From: Clostridiales bacterium
GTDB taxonomy: Bacteria; Bacillota; Clostridia; Christensenellales; CAG-138
Reading direction: 5' to 3'
Length of the DNA stretch: 64,000 nucleotides
NCBI GenBank assembly: GCA_009779405.1
Contig: WREI01000004.1
Span: 1 to 64,000, forward strand
Part shown: positions 1,470 through 48,548 of the stretch, one piece after another
Position numbering within the stretch: the stretch's first letter is position 1
Layout: the number at the start of each line of letters is the position of its first letter
Position numbers and translations under genes: made by a program
Notes under the pieces: generated by a model
The model's database searches: none
Told to the model about the DNA's origin: nothing
The model's input: the letters and a program-made list of their open reading frames with translations, nothing else

Positions 1470-1504
1470 GCAATGCGCAATGTTCAACGCGCAACGCGCA
1501 ATGG
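1470..1504. repeat. Five-unit heptanucleotide repeat (GCAAYGC type)
   Basis: Five consecutive 7-bp units read GCAATGC, GCAATGT, TCAACGC, GCAACGC, GCAATGG. The period and the mild divergence between units match the other heptad arms in this window, but no inverted partner is found nearby. It may be a solitary or decayed arm. Confidence 0.6.
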
Positions 1505-1708: not shown

Positions 1709-2623
1709 ATGGATCAAATTATTTTCCCGCATATCCATCGCTTCCGCGCTACTGCGCTGGCGGGGATTTGCAAGAACGCGGGCAAGACTACGGTTTTGAA
1801 CCGGATTTTGCGCGAGGTGCCTGCGGACGAAACCCTTGCGCTCACGTCGATAGGCCGGGACGGGGAAACGTGGGACCTTGTGACGGGTACGCAAAAGCCC
1901 GGTATCTTTGTGCGGCAGGGTACGCTGCTGGCGACGGCGGCGGGGCTCTTGCGCCACTGCGATATCACGCGCGAAATTTTGGCGGCGACGGGCGTCGCAA
2001 CGCCCTTGGGCGAGGTGATCGTCCTGCGCGCGCTGAGCGACGGGCAGGTGCAGCTGGCGGGGCCCTCCGTCACGGAGCAATTGGTCTCGCTTTCGCAGTT
2101 GTTTTGGCGCTTCGGCGCGTCGCGCATCCTGATTGACGGCGCGGTGGGCCGCAAGAGCCTTTGTTCGCGCCGCGTGGCGGAAGCGACCGTCCTCTGCGCG
2201 GGCGCGTCTTTCGGCGGCATGGAAGCCACGCTTGCCGAGACGGCGCATATCTGCCGCATACTCCAAACGCCCGCGCTGCCCGGCGATCCGCCCGATACGC
2301 GGGAGAAATTTGTGCTCTGTGACAAGCAGCTTCATGTGCGCGGCGCGGTGACGGATCACTTCCTGCTGCCCCTGCTGCGCGGTTTGCCCGAGGGCGTCAC
2401 GGTCATCGCGCAGGACGCGAGCCGCCTGCTGCTCTCGGCGTCGGCCCTGCATAAATTGGAACTGCGCGGCGGCAGTTTGGCGGTGCGGGACGGCATCACC
2501 CTCGCGGCGGTGGCGGTGAACCCGTATTCGGCCTATGGCAGCAGCTTCGACGCGGCGGAATTCTTGCAGAAAATGACAGCAAGGGTGGATGTGCCTGTGA
2601 TAGATGTAGGCAGCAGGCAGTAG
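1709..2623 (+). CDS. kamB: KamB-like P-loop protein, lysine 5,6-aminomutase reactivation partner
   Basis: This 304-residue cytosolic protein has a Walker A motif (GICKNAGKTT, about residues 19-28). It lies directly upstream of a MutS-like ATPase. That pairing is characteristic of the kamB-kamC genes in lysine-fermentation clusters of clostridia and fusobacteria, where they are thought to reactivate or protect the B12-dependent lysine 5,6-aminomutase. Here the pair sits about 18 kb from kamD/kamE. AAAGGGGG precedes the start and a TATAAT lies at 1676-1681. The TAG stop lies inside a heptad repeat (2607-2627), so the last residues (VGSRQ) are encoded by repeat DNA. The assignment rests on context plus the P-loop; KamB itself is poorly characterised. 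Confidence 0.75.
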   Translation: MDQIIFPHIHRFRATALAGICKNAGKTTVLNRILREVPADETLALTSIGRDGETWDLVTGTQKPGIFVRQGTLLATAAGLLRHCDITREILAATGVATPLGEVIVLRALSDGQVQLAGPSVTEQLVSLSQLFWRFGASRILIDGAVGRKSLCSRRVAEATVLCAGASFGGMEATLAETAHICRILQTPALPGDPPDTREKFVLCDKQLHVRGAVTDHFLLPLLRGLPEGVTVIAQDASRLLLSASALHKLELRGGSLAVRDGITLAAVAVNPYSAYGSSFDAAEFLQKMTARVDVPVIDVGSRQ

Positions 2624-2691
2624 GCAGTAGTGCCTTGCATTCAAGCCATAAAGCTTCCACTCCCTCAAACCTACTGCCTACTGCCTACTGC
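2607..2691. repeat. Heptad-repeat element, GGCAGTA family, short core
   Basis: The left arm has three units (TAGGCAG, CAGGCAG, TAGGCAG) and the right arm three inverted units (CTACTGC x3). They flank a core of about 45 bp with no gene. The left arm overlaps the kamB 3' end and supplies its stop. The right arm ends 16 bp before the kamC start. This looks like a non-autonomous member of the heptad family. Confidence 0.75.
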
Positions 2692-2707
2692 CCAAGAAAG
2701 GAACACA

Positions 2708-6603: not shown

Positions 6604-8167
6604 GGTTTTCGTGGTGGATGACGAGGTTGTGGTGCGCGAATCCATACGCACGCAGATCGCATGGGAGGATACGCGCTTTACGCTCTCGGGGGAAGCGTCC
6701 GACGGGGAGATGGCGCTGTCACTGATCAAGGATATCCAGCCGGACATATTGCTCACCGATATCCGCATGCCCTTTATGGACGGCTTGCAGCTTGCGAAAA
6801 TCGTGAAGCAGACCATGCCCTGGATACGCGTTATCATCCTCTCGGGCCACGACGAGTTCTTTTACGCGCAAAAGGCCATCGGCATCGGCGTGCAGGCCTA
6901 TCTTTTAAAGCCGATCAGCGTTTCGGAGCTGTTGGACGCGCTCGAGAGCGCGGCGACCGCCATTGAGGGGGAGGCCAAGGCACGCAACAGTACGGCGTCG
7001 CTGCAGGCCATGCTCAAGAATACGACCTTCCTGAACGCGCAGCACCTCTTTACGGATATACTCACAGGCGGCGTGGCAAGCGGCGAAGTCATCGAGCGCG
7101 CGCTGGCGTTCGGCATTGCCCTGATTGCGCCGCGCTATATCGTCGTGCGCATCGAACTGTCGGGGCATAGCGGGGGCCAGCTGCTCCTCGCGCGGGAGAT
7201 ATTGCACAATCTGGCGGAGGCCGACGACGGGGTTTGGCTTTCGTTCGGCGGCGTGGAGCGGATCGCCGCCATCATCAAGGGCGGCTCGGATGAAGCGGTC
7301 GTCGAGCGGGCCTATTCCTTTGCGCAGGCCGTACAGCATGAGATCGCGAACAATACGGAGCTTGCGGCGAGCATCGGGATAGGCGGCAGCGTTTCGCATC
7401 TCCCGTCCATCCCCGAATCGTATACGCAGGCGGGCGAGATCTTCAAGCGACTGGGCAGCGCGATGGCGGGCAAAATCTACAGCATCAGCGACCTCTTGGA
7501 GATCGGCGCGTTTGTGCCGGAGAATGTTCCGAGGAAGGCTCAGCTGCGCTACGCGACCGAGACCGATATCCCCGCGATCATCGAGAAGCTGCTCGAACCG
7601 CTCGGGGAGCAGACTGTGCTTTCGGCGCTCTTCGCCGATTATCTGCTGATGGATATGCTGATCACCTGTGCCAAACTCCTCAAAGAGTTGCATTGCGACG
7701 CCGAAAGCGTCTTGCCCGAGACCAAAAATTTCAGCGCCCTCCCCTTCAAACGTTCCACGCGGGAGGAGCTCGACGCCGCGATGCGGAGCATACTCTCCCG
7801 CACCTTTGCCGCGCGGGACGCGCATGCCGGGATGAAATACGCGTCCCTGATCCGCAAGGCACAGGCGTATATCCACGAGAACTATGCCGACGCGAATATC
7901 TCCCTGCAATCGGTCGCGGCCCACGTCGCGCTTTCGAGCAACCATTTCTGCACGATCTTCGCGCAGGAAACCGGGCGAACCTTTATCGAATATCTGACGG
8001 GCGTGCGCATCGCGCAGGCCAAAGAGGGACTGGCCGACCTGTCCGTGCGCACGAGCGAGGTCGCCTACTCCGTGGGCTACAACGACCCGCGCTATTTCAG
8101 CTATATATTCAAGAAAAATACCGGCCTGACCCCCCGCGATTATCGCGCGCAATATGCGGCAAAATAG
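6596..8167 (+). CDS. YesN-type response regulator (REC + AraC HTH)
   Basis: The protein has 523 residues. The N-terminal receiver domain begins MYKVFVVDDEVVVRESI, with the acidic pair DD at 9-10, the phospho-acceptor in DILLTDIRMP and Lys in LLKPI. The middle region (about 150-400) is typical of long YesN proteins. The C-terminal 100 residues form an AraC-type double helix-turn-helix ending with VGYNDPRYFSYIFKKNTGLTPRDYR. The ATG at 6596 overlaps the kinase stop by 8 bp, so the genes are translationally coupled. Its likely target is the promoter of the transport genes that start at 8337. Confidence 0.92.
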   Translation: MYKVFVVDDEVVVRESIRTQIAWEDTRFTLSGEASDGEMALSLIKDIQPDILLTDIRMPFMDGLQLAKIVKQTMPWIRVIILSGHDEFFYAQKAIGIGVQAYLLKPISVSELLDALESAATAIEGEAKARNSTASLQAMLKNTTFLNAQHLFTDILTGGVASGEVIERALAFGIALIAPRYIVVRIELSGHSGGQLLLAREILHNLAEADDGVWLSFGGVERIAAIIKGGSDEAVVERAYSFAQAVQHEIANNTELAASIGIGGSVSHLPSIPESYTQAGEIFKRLGSAMAGKIYSISDLLEIGAFVPENVPRKAQLRYATETDIPAIIEKLLEPLGEQTVLSALFADYLLMDMLITCAKLLKELHCDAESVLPETKNFSALPFKRSTREELDAAMRSILSRTFAARDAHAGMKYASLIRKAQAYIHENYADANISLQSVAAHVALSSNHFCTIFAQETGRTFIEYLTGVRIAQAKEGLADLSVRTSEVAYSVGYNDPRYFSYIFKKNTGLTPRDYRAQYAAK

Positions 8168-25712: not shown

Positions 25713-26753
25713 TTAAATGTATTTAGCGTTGAACAACTCGCGAATCTTCTCGCTCTCACGCAATTCATGCAAGGTAATCTCGGCGTGATCCCTGGTATAC
25801 CCGTTGCCGACGATCATCGTCACATCCTTGCCCACGCCCTCGGCGCCCAGCGCGGCACGCGTGAAGCTCGTCGCCATCGAGAAGAAATAGACCAGCCCCC
25901 CGTCGCGCACGGGCAGTATGGCCGACATTTCGCAGACCTCGACGTTTACACAGCTGATCGATATATCATATTCCGCGCCGCCGTTCGCCAGCAGCGCTTT
26001 TTCGAGCAGGTCGACGGGCCTGGTCGCGTCCGCAACGATATAGTGATGGCATACGCCCAGGGCCAGCAACTCCTCGCCCTGCACCGCGCGGCGTATCATG
26101 GCGACGACATTGCCCGTTGGCCCCACGCGCTTCATCGCTTCATAGCAGCAGAGTATGCCGCTCTTGCCGCCCGCGCCGAGTATCAGCACGCTGTCGCCCG
26201 GCTTCACCAATTTCGCGGTCTGCGCGGGCGCACCCGCCACGTCCAGCGCGGCCAAAGCGAGGGCTTCGCTCATATCGTCGGGCAGCTTCGCATAGATCGC
26301 GCTCTCGAACAGCACGGCTTTCGCATCCACGTCCACGCGGTCGATATCCATATGGATCTGCTTGATCTTCTCGATCTTCAGCGGCGTCATAGAGAGCGAG
26401 ACCAACGATGCGATCTTGTCTCCCACCTTCAGATCCCGGCCCGCCAGATCCTCGCCGATATAGGCCACGCGGCCTATAAACATGCCGCCGCTGCCCGTCA
26501 CGGGGTTCTGCATCTTCCCGCGCTCCCCGACGATGCCCAGAATCATCTCCGCAATCCTCTCGGGGTCGCCGCCGCAGGCCCCCTTGATCTGCGTAAAGCT
26601 CGCTGAATCCACGTTCAGCGAAATCACATCGCAGATGATCTCGTTGGAGTAGTGCTTCTCCATATCATTGTCGATCACCTGCGCTGCCTGCGTCAGCACG
26701 CCCTGGGGCGCGATTACGCGGTGGATGCCGTATTTGTTGCCTTTTTGTGTCAT
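25713..26753 (-). CDS. kdd: L-erythro-3,5-diaminohexanoate dehydrogenase
   Basis: The 346-residue protein has the start and length typical of Kdd (MTQKGNKYGIHRVIAPQGVLTQAAQ). A Rossmann-like nucleotide-binding region is seen at SVLILGAGGKSGILCCYEAMKRVG. It oxidatively deaminates 3,5-diaminohexanoate to 5-amino-3-oxohexanoate using NAD+. The genes before and after it (kce, kamA) make the assignment firm. An IVP-bearing heptad element separates it from kce, so its transcript passes through that element. Confidence 0.92.
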   Translation of the reverse strand: MTQKGNKYGIHRVIAPQGVLTQAAQVIDNDMEKHYSNEIICDVISLNVDSASFTQIKGACGGDPERIAEMILGIVGERGKMQNPVTGSGGMFIGRVAYIGEDLAGRDLKVGDKIASLVSLSMTPLKIEKIKQIHMDIDRVDVDAKAVLFESAIYAKLPDDMSEALALAALDVAGAPAQTAKLVKPGDSVLILGAGGKSGILCCYEAMKRVGPTGNVVAMIRRAVQGEELLALGVCHHYIVADATRPVDLLEKALLANGGAEYDISISCVNVEVCEMSAILPVRDGGLVYFFSMATSFTRAALGAEGVGKDVTMIVGNGYTRDHAEITLHELRESEKIRELFNAKYI

Positions 26754-26770
26754 GGTGGTTCTCCTTTTCA

Positions 26771-27319
26771 GTTAAGAGTTAATAGTGAAGAGTGAAGAGT
26801 TTTGGTTGAAATGCCGTTGGCATTTCTTATCATTGTATTTCTTCACTTCCGCGTGCGATTGTCTTTGTTGCGGAGTTCAGCATTTTAAGCAATTCTTCGC
26901 AATCACCCCATATGGATTCATATTCTTTTTTTGCCAAATATCCCGTCTCATAAAGTAACTCAATCCAATATAGCGTTTCGGCACATTCTTTCAGTGCAAT
27001 ACGAAGCTTACTGTGAAAGTCCTTGCGGCTGATAGCATAGCTGCTTTCCGCAGCGTTCGCGCCAATGCTTGTTCCGCTTCGCAACAACTGCTTGGAAAGC
27101 ACATACTCCTTCTTTTCCTCACAGAGAAATCTATACAAATTCACGATTCTCACAGCGAATCGTTTGCTCTTATATTTTACTGTTTTCTCATCAATCATCA
27201 TCGCTTACTCCTAATCTTTATCGCGTTAAGAGTGAATAGTTGTAGTAGAAATTCCTTCTAATATTATATGGGGAATCGCTTGCGATTCCTACCGCAACTC
27301 TTAACTCTTCACTCTTAAC
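26771..27319. mobile_element. Heptad-repeat element carrying a four-helix-bundle gene, inside the lysine operon
   Basis: The left arm has units GTTAAGA, GTTAATA, GTGAAGA, GTGAAGA (26771-26798). A direct copy of the arm (GTTAAGA, GTGAATA) recurs at 27225-27238. An inverted arm (AACTCTT, AACTCTT, CACTCTT) lies at 27296-27316. Small palindromic cores are present: GAAATGCCGTTGGCATTTC next to the left arm and GGGAATCGCTTGCGATTCC next to the right arm. The gene at 26830-27201 fills the interior. The whole fits between the kdd start and the kce stop. No target duplication is evident. Confidence 0.6.
26830..27201 (-). CDS. Four-helix-bundle protein, 23S rRNA intervening-sequence (IVP/S23) family
   Basis: The 123-residue protein is strongly helical and matches the small four-helix-bundle family (23S_rRNA_IVP, also related to the Avd accessory protein of diversity-generating retroelements). 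Landmarks are FAVRIVNLYRFLCEEKKEY, LLRSGTSIGANAAES, KDFHSKLRIALKECAETLYW and a C-terminal helix. Its paralogue lies at 54891-55262. The start follows TAGGAGT. It is lower in GC than the lysine genes on both sides and lies within heptad arms. It is probably cargo or an effector of the repeat element. Its biochemical role is unknown. Confidence 0.85.
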   Translation of the reverse strand: MMIDEKTVKYKSKRFAVRIVNLYRFLCEEKKEYVLSKQLLRSGTSIGANAAESSYAISRKDFHSKLRIALKECAETLYWIELLYETGYLAKKEYESIWGDCEELLKMLNSATKTIARGSEEIQ

Positions 27320-27326
27320 CCTACGC

Positions 27327-28142
27327 TCACATCCCCAAAATCTCCCGCGCTTCTGCCGGGGTCGCAATCCCGCGCCCCAGCTCCTTTGCGATTCGAACGG
27401 CCTTGGCGACCAGCTCGCCGTTGCTCTTGGCCAGTACGCCCTTCTCCAAATAGATGTTATCCTCAAAGCCCACGCGCACGTGCCCGCCCATCAGGATGGC
27501 CATGGTCGCCATGGGGAATTGCGCGCGGCCCACGCCCGCCGCCGTCCAAGTGCTGTTTGGCGGTATGCTGCCCGCCATAAACACGAGGTCGCGCGGCGTT
27601 GCCGCGATGCCGCCGTTCACGCCCATCACAAAATCAAAGTGCATGGGATCGGCGATATAGCCCCTGCGGTGCAGGCGCAGAGCCATATCGATCATGCCCT
27701 TGTCGAAGACCTCCAGCTCGGGCTTGATACCCCGCGCTGTCATCTTCCGGGCAAACTCAATGATCGTATTTTCGGTGTTGACGAAAATATCGTCCCCGCC
27801 GAAATTGCAGGTGCCGCAGTCCAGGGTCGCCATCTCCGGGTTCAATGTGATGGGCTGCAAGCGCTCTTCGTTGCTCATACCCACGGCCCCGCCCGTGCTC
27901 GTCTGGATAATCACATCCGGGCAAACTTCGCGAATCGCGGCAATGCACGCGGCAAAGCGCGCCGCGCTCTGGGTGGGCGTGCCGTCGTCCTCGCGCACAT
28001 GCAAGTGTATAATCGCCGCGCCCGCGTCAACGGCGCTCTTGGCTTCCCGCGCAATCTCGGCCACCGTATACGGCACCGCCGGGTTGTGTTCCTTCGTGAC
28101 TTCCGCCCCGCAAATGCAGGCGGTGATGATGAGTTTTTCCAT
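27327..28142 (-). CDS. kce: 3-keto-5-aminohexanoate cleavage enzyme
   Basis: The 271-residue TIM-barrel zinc enzyme belongs to the BKACE family. Visible landmarks are the start MEKLIITACICGAEVTKEHNP, the metal-binding GAAIIHLHVRE (HxH), ITLNPEMATLDCGTCNFG and GGHVRVGFEDNIYL. It condenses 5-amino-3-oxohexanoate with acetyl-CoA to give acetoacetate and 3-aminobutyryl-CoA. The ATG at 28142 follows AAAGGAG. A heptad element lies immediately upstream and another begins 7 bp after the stop. Confidence 0.94.
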   Translation of the reverse strand: MEKLIITACICGAEVTKEHNPAVPYTVAEIAREAKSAVDAGAAIIHLHVREDDGTPTQSAARFAACIAAIREVCPDVIIQTSTGGAVGMSNEERLQPITLNPEMATLDCGTCNFGGDDIFVNTENTIIEFARKMTARGIKPELEVFDKGMIDMALRLHRRGYIADPMHFDFVMGVNGGIAATPRDLVFMAGSIPPNSTWTAAGVGRAQFPMATMAILMGGHVRVGFEDNIYLEKGVLAKSNGELVAKAVRIAKELGRGIATPAEAREILGM

Positions 28143-28160
28143 GGGAGCTCCTTTCATTAA

Positions 28161-28250
28161 GAGGAAGGTGGAAAGAGGAAAGGGGAAAGTTAAGGCATTT
28201 CCATGTTCCCTGCCCACTCTATCTTTCCTCTTTCATCTTTCCACTTTCCT
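28161..28250. repeat. Heptad-repeat element, GAGGAAA family, between kal and kce
   Basis: The left arm reads GAGGAAG, GTGGAAA, GAGGAAA, GGGGAAA. The right arm reads ATCTTTC, CTCTTTC, ATCTTTC, CACTTTC, i.e. the inverted word. The core is about 32 bp without a gene. The right arm overlaps the kal 3' end: the last residues (KVER) and the TGA stop of kal are heptad DNA. Confidence 0.75.
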
Positions 28251-28622
28251 CTGCTTTGCTTTCGGCACCACACAAGTCCCACTTGCCCGGCATACGACAA
28301 TCGGTTCCGCCAGTACATCGCAGGCGGAGTCGCTGATGTCCGGGCGCGGGGCGATCACTTTACGCGCCTCGAAAATCATTTTGCGGGACGTGTTGCCGAT
28401 TTCGATGATCTCGCCCGTCGCTTCGATGTAGTCCCCCGCATAGACGGGCGCGAGGAATTCGACCATATCATAGGCGCGGAACAGGCCCTCGTCGCCGTCG
28501 TGGCGAATGAGGAGCTCGGTCGCGACGTCCCCGAACAGTGCGAGCATGCGCGCCCCGTCCACCAGATTCCCGCCGTAATGCGCGTCGTGCGCGCTCATGC
28601 GCAGGCGTATGGTTGCTTGCAT
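28233..28622 (-). CDS. kal: 3-aminobutyryl-CoA ammonia-lyase
   Basis: The 129-residue hotdog-fold protein is similar in length to known Kal. It begins [27 protein letters not shown], with [22 protein letters not shown] in the middle. It eliminates ammonia from 3-aminobutyryl-CoA to give crotonyl-CoA. The ATG at 28622 follows GGAGGT and is preferred to the 86-codon extension, which is the riboswitch leader. It is the first gene of the lysine operon. Its C-terminal tail is encoded by a heptad repeat arm. Confidence 0.9.
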
Positions 28623-28641
28623 AATGTTACCTCCGTAAAAT

Positions 28642-28679
28642 AATAAAAACGCGCCATTCGGAAACATTCCAAATAGCGC
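28642..28679 (-). terminator. Intrinsic terminator of the lysine riboswitch
   Basis: On the minus strand GCGCTATTTGGAA and TTCCGAATGGCGC form a 13-bp stem (two G-T wobbles) with a TGT loop, followed by GTTTTTATT. It ends 7 nt before the kal ribosome binding site. Its 5' strand includes CTATTT, which is also the 3' strand of riboswitch helix P1, so the two helices exclude each other. Confidence 0.85.
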
Positions 28680-28830
28680 AATGCGATTTTCGCATACAGT
28701 GACGGCGCACTGAGCCCCGCCCCCAAGGCAAGGCGCAGGGCAATGCCACCTCCCTTTCGGCGACGAACACATTCCGCGCAATGCCTGCCCGCATAATGCC
28801 GCGCGTACCTTGCCCCTCGCTCCTCTATTT
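28671..28830 (-). promoter_or_regulatory. Lysine riboswitch (L-box), predicted ON switch for lysine catabolism
   Basis: The leader read on the minus strand begins AAATAGAGGAGCGAGGGGCA and continues AGGTACGC. This follows the conserved L-box start seen before Bacillus lysC (ATAGAGGTGCGAACTTCAAGAGTA). Further conserved parts follow in order: GTCGCCGAAAGGG, a hairpin from AAGGGAGG and CCTTGCCTT (P3), GGGCG...CGCC (P4), GTCACTG, and ATGCGA-AAA-TCGCAT (P5). The final CTATTT pairs with AAATAG to close P1. Because CTATTT is also needed by the terminator, lysine binding should stop termination and turn the operon on. Family membership is by eye and not by covariance search. Confidence 0.8.
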
Positions 28831-28851
28831 TTGTATTTGATTGTGTAACCT

Positions 28852-30821: not shown

Positions 30822-30894
30822 GAGTGGAAAGTGAAGGTAATTCGGGAATCGCTTGCGATTCCTACCGCAACTCCACACTTCACACTCCACACTC
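30822..30894. repeat. Heptad-repeat element with GTGGAGT-type arms and shared palindromic core
   Basis: The left arm is GAGTGGA, AAGTGAA. The core contains GGGAATCGCTTGCGATTCC followed by TACCGC. The right arm is AACTCCA, CACTTCA, CACTCCA, CACTC. The core and the TACCGCAACTC junction are identical to those in the element at 27225-27319, although the heptad words of the arms differ. It sits 20 bp upstream of the threonine synthase-like start. Confidence 0.75.
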
Positions 30895-30939
30895 GCGCGG
30901 GCGGATAATATCCACCTCTACGGTTCGTTGGTATTCGCG

Positions 30940-30964
30940 CGGGCGAGGCATGTCTCGCCCCTAC
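30940..30964. repeat. Short GTAGGGG-family palindrome at the M23 gene end
   Basis: GGGCGAGGCATGTCTCGCCC is followed by CTACGA, a compact copy that ends 3 bp beyond the stop of the minus-strand peptidase-like gene. Confidence 0.55.
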
Positions 30965-47354: not shown

Positions 47355-47403
47355 AGCGCGTATCACCCGGTAAGTCTCCGATTTGCCGGGTGCGCTTTTC
47401 GGA

Positions 47404-47512
47404 GTTAAAAGTGAATAGTTAAGAGTGAAGAGTTATGGTTGAAGTTTTATTATAGAAATCCCGCAGGAATTTCCACCGCAACTCTTAACTATTCACTATT
47501 CACTCTTAACTC
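47404..47512. repeat. Heptad-repeat element, GTTAAGA family, between tRNA genes
   Basis: The left arm has GTTAAAA, GTGAATA, GTTAAGA, GTGAAGA. The right arm has AACTCTT, AACTATT, CACTATT, CACTCTT. The core between them includes the palindrome GAAATCCCGCAGGAATTTC followed by CACCGC. The arrangement matches the arms and core hairpins of the IVP-bearing element at 26771 but without a gene. It sits between tRNA-Glu and the CAT-anticodon tRNA and would be part of the tRNA precursor. Confidence 0.8.
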
Positions 47513-48389: not shown

Positions 48390-48548
48390 AAGTAATAATG
48401 CAGAATGCAGAGAAACTTCATACAATGAACATGCGTTAGGATGATTATACCAACTGTCTTTGCCCGGAACTTCTCTCTGTCCTCTGCATTATTACCTGTT
48501 ATCTCTCAAACCCCTCTCTGCCTTCTGCATTCTTACTTATTACTTCTC
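48390..48548. repeat. Heptad-repeat element, AAGTAAT/AATGCAG family, after cysS
   Basis: The left arm reads AAGTAAT, AATGCAG, AATGCAG (48390-48410). Two inverted arms follow: CTCTCTG, TCCTCTG, CATTATT, ACCTGTT, ATCTCTC (48473-48507) and CTCTCTG, CCTTCTG, CATTCTT, ACTTATT, ACTTCTC (48514-48548). The last arm overlaps the cysS 3' end, so the cysS stop TAA and its final residues (RSNK) are heptad DNA. The core holds no gene. Confidence 0.75.

Follow-up and report, generated by a model that had tools for sequence, protein, structure and literature searches.

Heptad-armed hairpin repeats with matched inverted arms in a Clostridiales genome

The window analyzed here comprises 64,000 nucleotides of a Clostridiales bacterium (assembly GCA_009779405.1, contig WREI01000004.1, positions 1 to 64,000). 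By eye, positions 25713-28835 hold a lysine fermentation-like gene cluster, with a lysine riboswitch at 28666-28835, and successive gaps of this lysine-degradation-like cluster are occupied by three repeat elements beginning at 26770 and 27222 (main family) and at 28159 (AGAGGAA family); a further copy, at 30822, lies upstream of a gene that by eye resembles threonine synthase. Rfam, applied to the window at gathering score, returned only tRNAs and the lysine riboswitch, and no family for the elements. The elements and related features are:

30822..30894, no strand: heptad-armed hairpin element, partly decayed, the copy singled out by the initial annotation; left arm 30822-30836 (AGTGGAA AGTGAAG), hairpin GGAATCGC-TT-GCGATTCC at 30845-30862, junction TACCGCAACT at 30863-30872, right arm to 30894 (complement of AGTGTGG/AGTGTGA words)
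About 27222/27225 to 27319, no strand: second copy; left arm 27225-27237, junction AGTTGTAGTAG, degenerate hairpin 1, hairpin 2 at 27272-27289, TACCGCAACT at 27290-27299, right arm to 27319
47402..47512, no strand: third copy, between tRNA-Glu and tRNA-Met; left arm AGTTAAA AGTGAAT AGTTAAG AGTGAAG, junction AGTTATGGT, hairpin GAAATCCCGCAGGAATTTC, then CACCGCAACT, right arm of four words
26770..26830, no strand: half element that has lost its right arm but keeps the left one, junction AGTTTTGGTTG and hairpin AAATGCC..GGCATTT
28159..28252, no strand: element whose arms belong to a separate word family (AGAGGAA/AGTGGAA) and whose core also differs
2606..2695, no strand: element with arms of a further word family, AGTAGGC, each of about three units
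1470..1503, no strand: CAATGCG-family heptad arm without a right partner, adjoining a GTAG-tagged palindrome pair
48391..48537, no strand: element of the AGTAATA/ATGCAGA family
1518-1690 and 30893-30962: second REP family, adjoining the CAATGCG heptad arm and the 30822 element

The initial annotation had claimed that the 30822 and 27263 sites carry the same core and that a third element carries an analogous one. Both statements hold: positions 30844-30873 and 27271-27300 share one identical 30-mer, GGGAATCGCTTGCGATTCCTACCGCAACTC, and the analogous core GAAATCCCGCAGGAATTTCCACCGCAACTC occupies 47455-47484. There are three exact occurrences of the 10-mer ACCGCAACTC in the window and 30 in the genome, against three there for the pattern read backwards. 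All three copies bear heptad arrays, as expected from the description of their arms as amplified 7-bp words; those at 27222 and 47402 are built of AGTTAAG/AGTGAAG/AGTGAAT. The related idea that inverted arms have matching words survives at the level of word family, but not in the 30822 element itself, the arms of which are mismatched. As single-stranded DNA, the 30822 copy folds better than 200 of 200 shuffles (z -3.8). Compared with full copies elsewhere, all three are decayed: in the 30822 copy hairpin 1 is missing and the left arm is short, hairpin 1 of the 27222 copy is broken, and the 47402 copy lacks hairpin 1. Thus the fixed core first described is real, but its single hairpin belongs to a decayed form, the full form having two.

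Full copies of the main family have the layout (AGTKAAK)3-4, AGTTGYGGTA, hairpin, AATTAAATT, hairpin, TACCRCAACT, inverted heptads, the three to four words of an arm being mostly AGTTAAG, AGTGAAG and AGTGAAT, repeated in inverted form on the far side. The spacer between hairpins 1 and 2 is A+T-rich and AATTAAATT-like, and the hairpins fall into few types (GGAATCGC..GCGATTCC, AAATNCC..GGNATTT and AAACAGC..GCTGTTT). Folded as single-stranded DNA, a full copy forms one long stem bearing the two hairpins (z -9.5 against shuffles). Of 25 copies chosen by strict criteria, most show the REPIN-like arrangement GGTA(G)-hairpin ... hairpin-(C)TACC, an inverted hairpin pair with a GTAG/GGAG-type foot tag; tag variants among elements include GGTGA, GGTAA and GGCAG, and across elements the core holds from zero to three REP-like hairpins, whose foot bears a GTAG-like tag. 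Double changes clearly preserve pairing in the core stems: with the flanking stem letters set by the search pattern, the variable position of AAATNCC/GGNATTT is GC in 19 cases, TA in 16, AT in 8 and CG in one, against four others (two of them G-T), and the sister species gives AT 17, TA 15, GC 2 and TG 1. Heptad arms nearly always adjoin the hairpins, and the hairpin pair is not, as in a REPIN, a replicative unit free of conserved outer arms: by score, five of 77 REP-like hairpin sites were without both arms, and four of those five visibly lie between arms. Coreless inverted arms (L070:19827, L241 and L048:813) and chimeric copies (L047:18134 and L279:1265) also occur. Separately, a third hairpin module, CCGTGCCGATGTATCGGCACGG with close variants, was seen inserted beside one junction of main-family elements at L049:4007, L056:12252, L101:8365 and 11595, L047:12711 and L060:17706.

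The genome of the window is a fragmented assembly of 2.5 Mb in 116 contigs, of which 1.18 Mb was sampled as stretches. Inverted arms of period 7, complementary arms being required for the count, define 82 elements in this sample; the same 1.18 Mb yielded one at period 5, one at period 6, and none at periods 8-12 or in shuffled sequence. The sister species (G001) holds 48 elements in 0.46 Mb. Like MITEs, the elements are short, non-coding and bounded by terminal inverted repeats, with many dispersed copies in both samples; they also share with heptameric simple sequence repeats (STRR) intergenic tandem 7-bp units in low number, most copies having 2-4 units per arm. An assembly artefact was ruled out, since copies are spread over many contigs and a complete chromosome of 5,512,510 bases likewise carries inverted heptad arms.

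At least seven arm word families are present in the genome of the window, where AGTKAAK is accompanied by AGTGTGG, AGTAGGC, AGAGGAA/AGTGGAA, CAATGCG, AGTAATA+ATGCAGA, CAGGGGA and AGTTCTC. In nearly every element the left and right arms come from one word family. AGTKAAK or AGTGTGG arms stand around the same core hairpins, and the two arms of an element tend to share a class (45 AA/AA, 3 TG/TG and 1 mixed; P = 0.0002). Because the count of 82 elements had needed complementarity, pairing was tested again with none demanded, taking heptad runs up to 300 bases apart and allowing at most one word difference: adjacent runs were inverted copies of one word in 27 of 36 cases, where random pairing predicts 12%, and in 23 of 38 cases in the sister species, where it predicts 6.5%. 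The AAAACNGC core hairpins of the sister species lie within arms of five families (CAAACTA/CAATGTA, AATAAGG, AGTTGAG, AGTTGAC and CAATGCG), with left and right arms matching. These data support a core type with exchangeable, matched arms, and with two arm types here and five families there, the modular unit first proposed stands. In the CAAACTA/CAATGTA family of the sister species, several copies at different loci carry identical arm strings around different hairpins, as expected if copies were dispersed. Two other sites in that species, L275:4100-4260 and 6885-7014, show heptad arms around a GTCATTCTGAGC..GCTCAGGATGACA inverted repeat. Sequences like this inverted repeat are known from other phyla.

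Within a word family the arms behave differently. The initial annotation had proposed tabulating arm words for compensatory changes between left and right, and had named independently varying arms as evidence against its model. At word level no compensation appears in the main family: across 45 elements, equal-rank words on opposite arms agree no more than shuffled or permuted ones, and 84% of arm bases pair within an element, compared with 83% for arms taken from different elements. Word-by-word compensation is rejected for this family, and independent variation is found within it, but the word family is common to both arms. Compensatory change is thus present in part: core stems covary, and arms match only at word-family level. 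The doubt that simple slippage alone would suffice was justified. Neighbouring words in an arm, with 35 identical against 45 +/- 5.6 expected, are slightly less alike than chance, and do not form the slippage-type array, with adjacent units alike, of STRRs; from this and the period controls, simple microsatellite slippage as sole cause is rejected.

The elements occupy 34 tandem, 17 convergent and 5 divergent gaps, with a deficit of the last (P = 0.003). Genes that run towards an element typically end close to it, their stop codon being no more than ~12 bases from the outer edge of the arm. Open reading frames were called mechanically, and 22 elements lie inside or overlap a called frame, many of these being start-side extensions of frames.

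AGTKAAK arrays are nearly confined to the genus among its relatives, with 188 matches in the genome of the window, 13 in the sister species and 0-3 in other relatives. Sequence from another 20 genera of the family, 0.29 Mb in total, contained no inverted heptad arms where ~20 were expected, which indicates a patchy spread. A class-wide search for arm plus junction gave 89 matches in the genome of the window and, elsewhere, about the level of the reversed control, so that the exact combination is species- or genus-specific. The array itself is far more widely distributed: among 84,980 species, more than 117 stretches, from many phyla, contain an exact 24-base AGTKAAK array, with 0.1 expected by chance. 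Of 80 such loci, 15 have an inverted partner within 300 bases facing inward and one has a partner facing outward; in the genome of the window the inward polarity is 43:0. Some class members carry arrays of the reversed word as well, implying that heptad arrays generally, and not one word, are common. In IMG/VR viral contigs (loci L319-L398), AGTKAAK arrays were present in at least 120 stretches, a count that includes any host flanks of proviruses, with three inward pairs and no outward ones. The complete 5.51 Mb chromosome of genome G219 (L259-L270), in stretches mostly picked for AGTKAAK arrays, held 14 inverted heptad-armed pairs with long cores in 240 kb, and this genome has 13-15 matches to the RAYT model.

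The reading that we favour, at about even odds, is that these are genus-specific, non-autonomous repeats of REPIN/MITE type with heptad arrays as their terminal inverted repeats. Each unit is bounded by terminal inverted repeats of three to four tandem heptads; inside these come a conserved junction, in this species AGTTGYGGTA, and then the core of REP-like hairpins. Whole units may spread by way of a folded single-stranded intermediate, in which arms and junction would pair into a stem with the core hairpins on top, cutting in trans being provided by a hairpin-recognising nuclease. Arm families would have diverged and reassorted with cores through recombination or template switching between copies, and the heptad words within an arm would afterwards have drifted independently. 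The mobility of the elements is itself something that we infer. This reading draws on the abundance of elements in the genus against their absence from the 20 other genera, on REP-like hairpins being almost never armless, on covarying stems, chimeric copies and identical dispersed arm strings, and on a gap placement that resembles that of REPs. The left-right arm strings tested in the genome of the window, all distinct (34 of 34), speak against it, since a recent copying burst would not give them. So do the results on transposases and on RAYT given below. No empty site, target duplication or strain polymorphism was found with one genome per species, a sister ~75% identical and fuzzy arm edges.

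Alternatively, the inverted arms may arise locally and repeatedly, by nascent-strand fold-back and template switching, with slippage by seven, perhaps dictated by the polymerase footprint, setting the period and hairpin cores being later insertions or by-products. Coreless inverted arms exist, same-word heptad arrays surround unrelated cores in many phyla, each sister-species locus can carry its own word, and a polymerase-footprint account of heptamer abundance is cited in PMC4692102. We nevertheless consider this origin unlikely: adjacent arm words are not more alike than chance, REP-like hairpins are hardly ever armless, arm strings and junctions recur at many loci, and the word-by-word agreement between arms that fold-back predicts fails in the main family.

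Selection for a bidirectional 3'-end device, in which inward arms would supply stops in several frames and the folded RNA would end or protect transcripts on both sides, would account for other features. Stops of incoming genes lie close to the outer arm edge in most cases, divergent gaps are avoided, AGTKAAK arms point inward both here and, by locus, across phyla, and repeated words shift frame since seven is 1 modulo 3. Main-family arms offer a stop in every frame in 31 of 68 cases when read inward and in 3 of 68 when read outward, compared with 18% in shuffled sequence. Yet the CAATGCG, AGAGGAA, CAGGGGA and CAAACTA families share the architecture with few or no stop codons, and neutral insertion into a compact genome would also place elements at gene ends, leaving this explanation quite improbable. 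A three-frame stop cassette as universal cause of heptads was rejected, as it fits only AGTTAAG-type words.

A recurring lexicon (AGTGAAT, AGTTAAG, CAATGCG, AGTTGAC and others) with inward polarity is found in Firmicutes, Bacteroidetes, Planctomycetes, Acidobacteria and Cyanobacteria around unrelated cores. An unknown, widespread process that builds or maintains inverted heptad arms of fixed polarity around hairpins is on these grounds conceivable, though decidedly doubtful; with lexicon and polarity shared but cores unrelated, a dedicated protein reading a 7-base step would be needed.

The genome of the window and the sister species both have RAYT-like genes, and a GTAG-like foot tag with an inverted hairpin pair is as in REPINs (PMC3116915, PMC3733652); the elements might thus be classical REPINs moved by the RAYT proteins of the window's genome, with heptad arms as hitch-hiking flanks. 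We observed in addition a second, classical REP family of GTAGGGGCG..CGCCC palindromes, with RAYT-like genes beside or between them:

L056:100-160, 169-684 and 680-710 (G000 C9): second REP family and RAYT sites
L451:2225-2793 (G000 C83): second REP family and RAYT site

The palindromes flanking the C9 and C83 genes are GTAGGGGCG, not the hairpins of the heptad elements, and the flanks examined of the C62 and C60 RAYT-like genes held no AGTKAAK arm or matching hairpin; a cognate RAYT flanked by the same palindrome, as in REPINs, was not among them. Among 291 class members there was no clear association of RAYT with AGTKAAK arrays (15/22 against 142/269, P = 0.12). With the REP-like hairpins not found armless, and with neither adjacency nor co-occurrence lending support to RAYT as mobiliser, the link is weak and this reading very unlikely. 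An autonomous element between distant matching arms gained no support either: such arms were listed for ~1.6 Mb from two genomes, and the three pairs inspected enclose host genes and no transposase.

In cyanobacteria, small hairpin repeats (SDR) are reportedly embedded in tandem heptamers (STRR), as described by Mazel in 1990 and Elhai in 2008; those heptamers are said to form direct arrays, whereas here inverted arms flank the hairpins. The Xanthomonas GGGAATC arrays of Rehm et al. 2015 (PMC4692102), of about four units, are likewise intergenic tandem heptads in inverted pairs (70 and 75 convergent cases in two genomes), but they have one word type per genome and are read as G-quadruplexes, and no conserved junction, REP-like hairpin core or exchange of word families, all present here, is reported for them. 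The TAACTGA repeats (MacGregor 2015, PMC4679880) and the heptanucleotide elements of Geobacter (PMC2700814) are also dispersed, intergenic heptad arrays of few units; in the available parts of these reports almost all are direct repeats and no core hairpins are described, as opposed to the inverted arms and hairpins found here. With REPINs, BIMEs and GTAG-tagged REPs (PMC3116915, PMC3733652) our elements share the inverted hairpin pair, the foot tag, compensatory stem changes and an intergenic location mainly in tandem and convergent gaps; unlike REPINs, they have obligatory outer heptad arms and two hairpins of different stem sequence, and a RAYT with matching flanks was not found. Bacterial heptad repeats are described as over-represented, with no consensus on the cause (PMC4692102), and their origin, whether by insertion of armed units or by local fold-back growth, becomes testable among strains of one genus, word families serving as a tag for tracing recombination among such repeats. 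The closest precedents are the inverted heptad pairs of Xanthomonas, the heptads around cyanobacterial SDRs, and REPINs. Heptad repeats and hairpin repeats are each known, and REP-like hairpins have usually been treated apart from heptads; the elements reported here unite the two, with heptad arms as exchangeable ends, in a modular combination that appears to be undescribed.
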